A program made the translations under genes and the position numbers. A stretch of DNA of 37,819 nucleotides from the NCBI GenBank assembly GCA_026398285.1, contig JAPLTI010000183.1, forward strand, positions 1 to 37,819. The letters run 5' to 3'. Numbering within the stretch: the first letter of the stretch is position 1; each line of letters starts with the position of its first letter. A model generated the notes under the pieces. It saw only the letters and a program-made list of their open reading frames with translations. It was not told the DNA's origin and made no database searches. Shown here in pieces: positions 13,048-21,211 of the stretch. The stretch is from Verrucomicrobiota bacterium. GTDB taxonomy: Bacteria > Verrucomicrobiota > Verrucomicrobiia > Chthoniobacterales > Terrimicrobiaceae.

Positions 13048-13245
13048 ATGTCCACAGTTCAAGAAATCGAGACGGCAGCCGACCTTCTGCCTATTGAACA
13101 GAAAGAGGGACTTTTGCGTTTCCTTGCAATCAGGTTAAGAAAAGACCGCGCACAAGCGCAAACTCGCCTTTACTCCCAAGAGGAACTTTCTTCCATGCTC
13201 GCCGAGGACGAAGCCGACGGTGAACGCTTTCGGAAAGGCCATTGA
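13048..13245 (+). CDS. putative antitoxin of a type II TA module
   Basis: 65-aa MSTVQEIETAADLLPIEQKEGLLRFLAIRLRKDRAQAQTRLYSQEELSSMLAEDEADGERFRKGH, immediately upstream of and overlapping a PIN-domain ORF. Confidence 0.7.
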   Translation: MSTVQEIETAADLLPIEQKEGLLRFLAIRLRKDRAQAQTRLYSQEELSSMLAEDEADGERFRKGH

Positions 13246-13664
13246 GAATCTTTGTCGACAGCTGCGTGGCACTCGCCGCCTGCCTCTCTAAAACGGGGGC
13301 ATCGCGACTGATCTTCGAACTCGCCGCTGCGCAGGAATGGGAGTTGGTTGTTTCCCGCTGGGTGCTGCGGGAGATGCGCGAGAATCTGGCGGATTTGCCT
13401 CTTTCCGCAACCCGCGTCTGGCTTGACCTCAAGAACCAACTCGTGGTCGAGGATGACGAACTGACTTTTGATTGGCCTCTGCTTTTTCATACCACCAAAG
13501 ACAAACCAGTCCTTTGCACCGCGCTCGCGTGCGCTGATGTGCTTCTTACGCTCGATCGCCGAGATTTTGGATCCCTCCTTGGCCAGTCGGTCTACGATCT
13601 CCGCGTGCTTACCCCCGGAGCGTTTCTCCATGCGGAAAGACAAGCGGGGCGCCTGCAAGAATGA
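13242..13664 (+). CDS. PIN-domain toxin (VapC-like)
   Basis: MRIFVDSCVALAACL...ADVLLTLDRRDFGSLLGQSVYDLRVLTPGAFL; acidic PIN-type pattern. TTG start overlaps the antitoxin stop (TTGA). Confidence 0.78.
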   Translation: MRIFVDSCVALAACLSKTGASRLIFELAAAQEWELVVSRWVLREMRENLADLPLSATRVWLDLKNQLVVEDDELTFDWPLLFHTTKDKPVLCTALACADVLLTLDRRDFGSLLGQSVYDLRVLTPGAFLHAERQAGRLQE

Positions 13665-16549: not shown

Positions 16550-16933
16550 ATGCAACAGGTCAAAGACACACTCCGCGCCACCGTGCGCATTGGCTACGAC
16601 GGCAAGGTCTATAAACAATTTCGCGGGCCAAAGGCCGAAGAGCGATTTGCGAATGAGGTGAAAGTGCTTCGCTACCTCGAAAAGCGCGCGTGCCCGTTTG
16701 TGCCACGACTCGTTGAGAGCGATGCGGAGGAGCTGAGAATAGTGACGACCAATTGCGGAACGCGCGTTGACCACCTAGACGACGCCCGCTGCCGCGAGTT
16801 GTTCGCCGAACTCGAGCCCTACGGCGTCCGGCACGACGACGCCGACATACGGAATGTCACCTACCGCCAGTCCGACGGCCGATTTTGCCTCATCGATTTT
16901 GAATTTGCGACAATCTTGGAGCCGGAGCAATGA
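16550..16933 (+). CDS. minimal protein kinase-like protein (~128 aa)
   Basis: N-lobe-like VRIGYDGKVYKQFRGPKAEERFANEVKVLRYLEK and catalytic-loop-like GVRHDDADIRNVTYRQSDGRFCLIDFEFA (HxDxxxxN ... DFE). Confidence 0.7.
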   Translation: MQQVKDTLRATVRIGYDGKVYKQFRGPKAEERFANEVKVLRYLEKRACPFVPRLVESDAEELRIVTTNCGTRVDHLDDARCRELFAELEPYGVRHDDADIRNVTYRQSDGRFCLIDFEFATILEPEQ

Positions 16934-17751
16934 GCGACATTCCCTCCCCGATCAAAAGCCTTCTATGGTCCGGCCACACGGACTGCGGGAAGGTCCGTAA
17001 AAACAACGAGGATTCTTTCCTCGGCCTGATCGTCGATGCACAAGGGGCCCAATGGCTCGGAAAGATAGGCGAGGCCGAAGTCGCCAAATCCGATTTTGTT
17101 TTTGCCGTGAGCGATGGAATGGGGGGCGCGAAGGCCGGGGAGTTCGCCAGCAAGATAGCCGTGGAAAAAATCACGAAAATCCTACCAACGGTTTTCGCAC
17201 AAGGAGCTTCGGGCATTTCCAGCGGATTCCGCGATGTGCTTCAGGAGGTCTTTGTCGAAATCCACCGCGCGCTGCTCTATCTCGGCTCCTGCTACGAAGA
17301 GTGTCGTGGCATGGGTGCCACGCTGAGTCTGTGCTGGTTCACTCCGGGGTGGATGTATTTCGCCCATATCGGCGACAGCCGCATTTACTTCCTTCCGGCG
17401 GCCGGCGGCATGAAGCAGATCACCAACGACGACACCTATGTCGGCTGGCTTTTTCGAAACGGCCAAATCAACGAGCGCGAGGCGAAAAACCATCCCCAGC
17501 GAAATGTCCTGCAAAAAGTTCTCGGCGCAGATCCGCAACAGATCGAACCCCAGACCGGCGCCGTGGGACTCGAGCCGGGCGACCGGTTTCTGCTCTGCAC
17601 GGATGGCGTCACCGATGGCCTCTTCGACAGCCGCATAGAAGATATCCTGCGCAACACCTCCCGTGAGGCGGCGCCGGCTCTCGTTCGCGAGGCAATCGCA
17701 GCCTCCGGCCGGGACAATGCGACTGCGCTTGTGGTCGATATTGTCGGGTAG
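16930..17751 (+). CDS. PP2C-family serine/threonine phosphatase
   Basis: SGHTDCGKVRKNNEDSFLG...FAVSDGMGGAKAGEFAS...GMGATLSLCWF...HIGDSRIYFL...LCTDGVTDGL...GRDNATALVVD; ATGA overlap with the kinase-like ORF. Confidence 0.94.
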   Translation: MSDIPSPIKSLLWSGHTDCGKVRKNNEDSFLGLIVDAQGAQWLGKIGEAEVAKSDFVFAVSDGMGGAKAGEFASKIAVEKITKILPTVFAQGASGISSGFRDVLQEVFVEIHRALLYLGSCYEECRGMGATLSLCWFTPGWMYFAHIGDSRIYFLPAAGGMKQITNDDTYVGWLFRNGQINEREAKNHPQRNVLQKVLGADPQQIEPQTGAVGLEPGDRFLLCTDGVTDGLFDSRIEDILRNTSREAAPALVREAIAASGRDNATALVVDIVG

Positions 17752-20666: not shown

Positions 20667-20915
20667 ATGGCAATTACATATTCCGTCACAGAAGCTCAAG
20701 CTGGCCTCCCCTCTATTCTGCGCGAAGCGGAAGAGCAGCCAGTAATTATAACCCGTCGGGATAAGGCGGTGGGTTACCTTCTTTCTCCAGAAAGATTTGA
20801 GGCGATGCTGGAGACGATGGAAATCATGTCGAATCCTTTGGCCATGCAGGCAATACGGGATCACAAATCCGGGAAAACGAAATTCATGCCGCTTGATGTC
20901 CTTGATGAGAAATAA
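20667..20915 (+). CDS. Phd/YefM-type antitoxin
   Basis: MAITYSVTEAQAGLPSILREAEEQPVIITRRDKAVGYLLSPERFEAMLETME. Confidence 0.88.
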   Translation: MAITYSVTEAQAGLPSILREAEEQPVIITRRDKAVGYLLSPERFEAMLETMEIMSNPLAMQAIRDHKSGKTKFMPLDVLDEK

Positions 20916-21211
20916 TGAAGGTCAACATCTCCGATCAGGTTCGCAACTTTATTCTTTGCCTCGCTCCCGAACCTAGAAAGCGCCTAAGAGAGGCATTGCG
21001 CATGCTCGAGAGTGAGAAGGGTGACATCAAAGCACTTGAAAACGATCTCTCCGGTTATTTTCGGCTTCGAGTTCGCGCTTACCGAGTTATTTTCGGCTAT
21101 CGTGCTATGGAAGACTCCGGTGTTGCCGAGATAGAGTGCGTCTTTTGCGAACGCCGATCGATCGTTTATGAGGCTTTCGCTGCCTTGAGTGCCAGACTGC
21201 AAGGTCGGTAG
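20915..21211 (+). CDS. RelE/ParE-type toxin
   Basis: MKVNISDQVRNFILCLAPEPRKRLREALRMLESEKGDIKALENDLSGYFRLRVRAYRVIFGY; 1-nt overlap with the antitoxin (taATG). Confidence 0.88.
   Translation: MKVNISDQVRNFILCLAPEPRKRLREALRMLESEKGDIKALENDLSGYFRLRVRAYRVIFGYRAMEDSGVAEIECVFCERRSIVYEAFAALSARLQGR

Follow-up and report, generated by a model that had tools for sequence, protein, structure and literature searches.

GlnE is the bifunctional modifier of the glutamine synthetase GSI, carrying out both its adenylylation and its de-adenylylation, and AceK is the IDH kinase/phosphatase. For the type II glutamine synthetase (GSII) of bacteria, no covalent regulation was found in the literature searched; in a bacterium that has both GSI and GSII, adenylylation was found on GSI only (PMC10100968). 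In cyanobacteria, the PII protein is phosphorylated at Ser49 and the PP2C-type enzyme PphA is the phosphatase, while the PII kinase was long elusive, with SpkB as a candidate (PMC10651672, PMC4285133). For bacterial PP2C domains, a survey published in 2025 mentions fusions with Pkinase, and its text contains no Verrucomicrobiota or APH term (PMC12088040).

The window, that is the whole stretch of 37,819 nucleotides of verrucomicrobial DNA that was analysed, encodes a small kinase-like protein immediately upstream of a PP2C phosphatase. The initial annotation had reported this small ORF, its VYK, NEVKVL, HDDADIRN and DFE motifs, the 4-nt overlap with the phosphatase start and the lack of most of a C-lobe, and each of these points was borne out. 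The features of the locus are as follows.

16550..16933, + strand: mini-kinase gene, encoding a stand-alone kinase-like protein of 127 aa followed by TGA (from the ORF, its orthologs and the predicted fold)
16613..16615, + strand: codon of Lys22, the beta3 Lys of VYK, invariant in 106/106 members
16655..16657, + strand: codon of Glu36, the alphaC Glu of NEVKVL, invariant in 106/106 members and lying in predicted helix 29-45
16832..16855, + strand: catalytic loop HDDADIRN, with H95, D97 and N102 invariant
16895..16903, + strand: DFE, metal-binding, with D116 and E118 invariant; the chain stops 9 residues further on
16930..16933, + strand: ATGA in which the stop codon of the kinase gene overlaps the start codon of PP2C (from the ORF positions)
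16930..17751, + strand: PP2C-type protein phosphatase of 273 aa, with all five metal-binding Asp motifs present

An alternative upstream TTG start would add 13 residues to the mini-kinase; conservation among the orthologs begins at the ATG at 16550. The neighbouring genes in the window are plsY and gpsA, which are divergent, and leuA downstream. Elsewhere in the window, two overlapping small genes at 20667-21211 resemble a toxin-antitoxin pair of the Phd/YefM-RelE type, and two others at 13048-13664 resemble an antitoxin with a PIN-domain toxin.

Full-length orthologs of the mini-kinase were found in 24 of the 26 genomes of the window genome's family. Across the phylum it was detected in 78 of 388 sampled genomes, all 78 of them from the window genome's class, and at least 80 named genomes carry it, nearly all titled Verrucomicrobiota. 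Four records titled Proteobacteria or Bacteroidetes (L059, L066, L078 and L098) contain a verrucomicrobial kinase locus, in L066 together with GSII, and are probably mislabelled metagenome bins. Plasmid and phage homologs were searched for and none was found. Orthologs across the class are 50-97% identical and ~125-160 aa long unless the frame continues into PP2C, and in an alignment of 106 diverse members Lys22, Glu36, His95, Asp97, Arg101, Asn102, Asp116 and Glu118 are identical in every one. A match in genome G231, from another class of the phylum, was rejected as an ortholog since it is a different kinase: here a kinase-like domain with HRDMNRKN and DFEWA is fused behind a methyltransferase-like domain (L133:3136-4503).

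A protein this short might be taken for a truncated remnant of a larger kinase or for a chance ORF, and its length is the sole point in favour of that idea. A longer parent was looked for among the orthologs, and all of them proved either equally short or fused to PP2C; because none is a longer stand-alone kinase, the mini-kinase is not a truncated copy of one. With full-length orthologs conserved across the class and invariant active-site residues, the idea of a remnant or chance ORF is already refuted and its probability is close to nil. The mini-kinase is a real, short family.

Structure prediction, which the initial annotation had proposed as a check on its kinase-like reading, gave a confident, kinase-like AlphaFold2 model from the 106-row alignment (pLDDT 94.1, pTM 0.87). 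Of the two outcomes that the initial annotation had named as refuting its reading, a fold unlike that of a kinase and orthologs pointing to a truncated longer kinase, neither was obtained, and its interpretation is supported. The predicted elements are strands at 2-6, 10-14 and 19-24, the alphaC helix at 29-45, strands at 54-58 and 63-67 and one helix at 78-86, after which come the catalytic loop, a pair of short strands and DFE. The best solved structures found with Foldseek were ArkI, then Kae1-Bud32 and Rio2, with an E-value of 8e-7 and a TM-score by query of 0.69 for ArkI (8yv5). All the hallmark residues of the protein-kinase-like superfamily are present, namely the beta3 Lys, the alphaC Glu, the Asp and Asn of the catalytic loop and the Asp of DFG. 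Two features normally regarded as essential to a kinase are missing. There is no glycine-rich or P-loop between beta1 and beta2, its place between strands 2-6 and 10-14 being taken by the glycine-free turn T7-L8-R9, in which R9 is nearly invariant and next to which K5 is invariant. Past DFE, the activation segment and the later helices from alphaF onward are absent. Because both the glycine-rich loop and the alphaF, substrate-binding C-lobe are lacking, it is doubtful that the mini-kinase is active on its own, even though the protein looks like a working kinase in its sequence and model.

Of the Pfam families, APH (PF01636) alone scores above its cut-off, and all 106 members match its profile; the small window protein scores 28 bits against a gathering threshold of 23.2, in a partial match of residues 82-122, the part with the catalytic loop, to profile positions 156-199 of 239. 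The Kdo/WaaP profile matches more weakly than APH and below its cut-off, and the Bud32 profile TIGR03724 reaches 18.1 bits, below its cut-off of 125. When the mini-kinase profile was compared with CDC7 and CK2, the catalytic loops aligned with marginal E-values. That APH alone passes the Pfam cut-off, and that the nearest fold is the tRNA 2'-kinase ArkI, could be taken to mean that the substrate is RNA or a small molecule, with the kinase's link to GSII (see below) reflecting shared nitrogen physiology only. The mini-kinase is, however, without the C-terminal lobe of ArkI, which is believed to bind tRNA through its basic surface (PMC9095486), and the phosphatase that accompanies it, or is fused to it, belongs to a family that acts on phosphoproteins. 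We consider such a substrate quite improbable.

The phosphatase is a constant companion of the mini-kinase. The window phosphatase scores 69.1 bits against the PP2C family PF13672 (cut-off 24) and 192.9 bits against the Stp1/IreP model NF033484, below the equivalog cut-off of 230, and the five metal-binding Asp positions are invariant in 58/58 sequences. A check of how well the pair is conserved placed PP2C beside the kinase nearly everywhere: at 79 of the 80 loci from named genomes, the remaining one being truncated at the edge of its contig, and at 52 of another 55. The 80 include L099 and eleven loci stored in reverse orientation. At 17 loci the two form a single fusion protein of ~400 aa, of which one (L068) was modelled with a pLDDT of 94.5 and a pTM of 0.82. 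Mapped onto the kinase tree, fusion changes state ~7 times, and well-supported branches force at least three of these changes. The family, its residues, its fold and its coupling or fusion to PP2C are computed results.

The initial annotation had left two interpretations of the pair standing side by side, a writer with its eraser or a pseudokinase that regulates the phosphatase. The near-universal pairing and the 17 fusions favour the first of these. In its regulatory form, the second would make the mini-kinase a dead or ATP-sensing subunit of PP2C, with the real kinase a Hanks-type enzyme encoded elsewhere; the missing C-lobe, activation segment and glycine-rich loop would agree with this, and fusion to PP2C would suit a regulatory domain. 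Pseudokinases typically lose at least one catalytic residue, whereas here the Lys, the alphaC Glu, the Asp of HxD, the Asn and the DFG Asp are invariant in 106/106 members. Because every catalytic residue is invariant the pseudokinase reading is disfavoured, and we regard a purely regulatory subunit as unlikely.

The distribution of GSII closely follows that of the kinase. GSII was called at E < 1e-100 in the same 388 phylum genomes that had been searched for the kinase, and was found in 86 of them, including 78/78 of the mini-kinase genomes. All eight genomes with GSII only lie outside the class, seven with 57-62% identity and one reduced genome with 72%, and GSII was not found in any of the listed kinase-lacking genomes of the class. 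The commonest neighbour of the kinase is a divergent GSII gene 120-420 nt upstream, and in 63/78 genomes GSII lies within 4 kb, mostly divergent. The co-occurrence statistic is inflated by this arrangement because neighbouring genes can be lost in a single deletion. In the remaining 15 genomes, however, GSII and kinase are unlinked, the window genome among them with its GSII on another contig, and at three loci (L169, L170 and L175) the kinase has moved beside mgtE while PP2C is still divergent to GSII. We take these unlinked genomes, and the cases in which the kinase has been relocated, as an argument that the set is held together by selection.

The intergenic regions add a regulatory context. 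A strong sigma-54 promoter faces GSII in 48 of 84 of them, where 0.07 were expected, at 67-133 nt before the GSII start (for example around 6204-6219 in L162), and one also precedes the window genome's own GSII; in none of the 84 does a sigma-54 promoter face the kinase. Few GSII residues track the kinase and none of these is obviously phosphorylatable, so that no specific phosphosite can be named. A conserved upstream + strand gene cluster (cluster 3) was rejected, being an antisense reading of GSII. In family f8 (L148:877-2271, L150:2419-3855, L155:2656-4056 and L169:9064-10431) the kinase directly follows mgtE, which encodes a Mg2+ transporter with CBS domains, and is not beside GSII.

A second candidate target was suggested by the other side of the locus, where AmtB and/or PII lie convergent to the pair, downstream of it, in 15 loci. 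By analogy with cyanobacteria, the pair would be the kinase and phosphatase of PII (GlnB/GlnK) acting on Ser49 of the T-loop. In the 14 loci where PII itself is convergent, Ser49 is kept in 14/14 and the T-loop reads YRGSEYTVDF in 13/14, and the solved PP2C closest by sequence to the window phosphatase is tPphA. The likeness to tPphA was rejected as a specific clue, since PstP and Stp1 lead the structure search and fit as well as PphA. An identical T-loop is also found in genomes of the class that lack the kinase, most of which encode PII, and the pair is linked to PII much less often than to GSII. Moreover, a GlnD-like uridylyltransferase occurs in 35/35 kinase genomes tested, 34 of them over the curated cut-off, so that PII already has a modifier. 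The assignment as a PII Ser49 kinase was therefore rejected on the T-loop and GlnD evidence, and we hold it improbable; PII is the weaker target because Ser49 does not discriminate and because GSII tracks the kinase and PII does not.

GlnE, the classical modifier of glutamine synthetase, occurs in 14 genomes of the class within the phylum draw, 11 of which lack the kinase, and thus in only 3/78 kinase genomes, all three from family f15. Among the genomes tested, those with GlnE had a GSI above the cut-off, as did one further f15 genome, G188. Both synthetase types were seen together only in f15, where GSI lies beside GSII in G152 and G188, G152 being a genome with GlnE as well as the kinase. 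From the distributions of GlnE with GSI and of the kinase with GSII, the class uses either GSI and GlnE or GSII and the mini-kinase/PP2C pair, as near-exclusive alternatives. In the manner of GlnE, the mini-kinase tracks one type of glutamine synthetase (GSII in 78/78) and replaces the system that serves the other (GlnE in 3/78). Neither set is present in Akkermansia-like genomes and a few others, which, judging from long weak glutamine synthetase matches, appear to rely on a large GSIII. Both the co-occurrence with GSII and the near-exclusion with GlnE are computed observations.

The model that best accounts for these results is one in which writer and eraser together phosphorylate GSII reversibly, with the C-lobe probably contributed by a partner. 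The kinase, as a member of the protein-kinase-like superfamily cut down to its N-lobe, a single helix of the C-lobe, the catalytic loop and the two strands equivalent to DFG, would bind ATP and phosphorylate its target, and PP2C would remove the phosphate. The most likely target would be GSII, whose gene is usually divergent beside the pair, and its activity would be set according to nitrogen status. Phosphotransfer, the substrate and the direction of control are inferred, as is the source of the missing C-lobe, which would probably be PP2C or the GSII oligomer. The fusions would constitute a single bifunctional protein, as GlnE does for GSI. Taken as a whole, this model stands at about an even chance, leaning slightly towards being correct. 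Against it, GSII exists outside the class without the kinase, and at some loci the kinase lies next to mgtE, in another kind of context. Since, within the class, the sampled genomes that carry the kinase are the very ones that have GSII, the pair is probably a previously undescribed on/off switch for nitrogen assimilation. The stronger proposal, that no active member of the protein-kinase-like superfamily is smaller than this half kinase, which would work only with or on a partner, and that it forms with PP2C a dedicated reversible switch for GSII by phosphorylation, is tentative and on balance somewhat doubtful.

If correct, the model would provide a covalent control of a bacterial glutamine synthetase distinct from adenylylation by GlnE, filling the gap in GSII regulation. 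An active kinase of 127 aa with neither glycine loop nor C-lobe would also redefine how small a kinase fold can be and raise the question of what supplies the missing half. The genes are short, conserved and readily expressed, so the questions of the substrate and the missing half can be tested directly.

The kinase fold and the phosphatase are each of a known kind. What appears new is a kinase of half the usual size, the fact that it is fused to PP2C and its association with GSII; none of the three was found in the literature searched, which covered open-access journal papers. The mini-kinase shares with ArkI, Bud32 and RIO the fold of the N-lobe, catalytic loop and DFG-equivalent, together with the catalytic residues. 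However, ArkI has ~216 aa, with a P-loop at 31-38 and a C-lobe running to residue 216 (PMC9095486), whereas in the mini-kinase a turn of three residues replaces the P-loop and the chain stops after DFE; where it has nine residues left, ArkI continues for ~65 (PMC9095486). The APH profile is matched by all members, but the mini-kinase has no antibiotic or small-molecule context. With all its metal ligands, the window phosphatase is an ordinary PP2C like Stp1, PphA and PstP, and differs from them in being coupled or fused to a half-size kinase. The closest parallel in logic is with GlnE and AceK, in which writer and eraser also occur together, sometimes in one polypeptide, and are dedicated to one branch-point enzyme. 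Their chemistry and folds differ from those of the pair, and GlnE goes with GSI whereas the pair goes with GSII.
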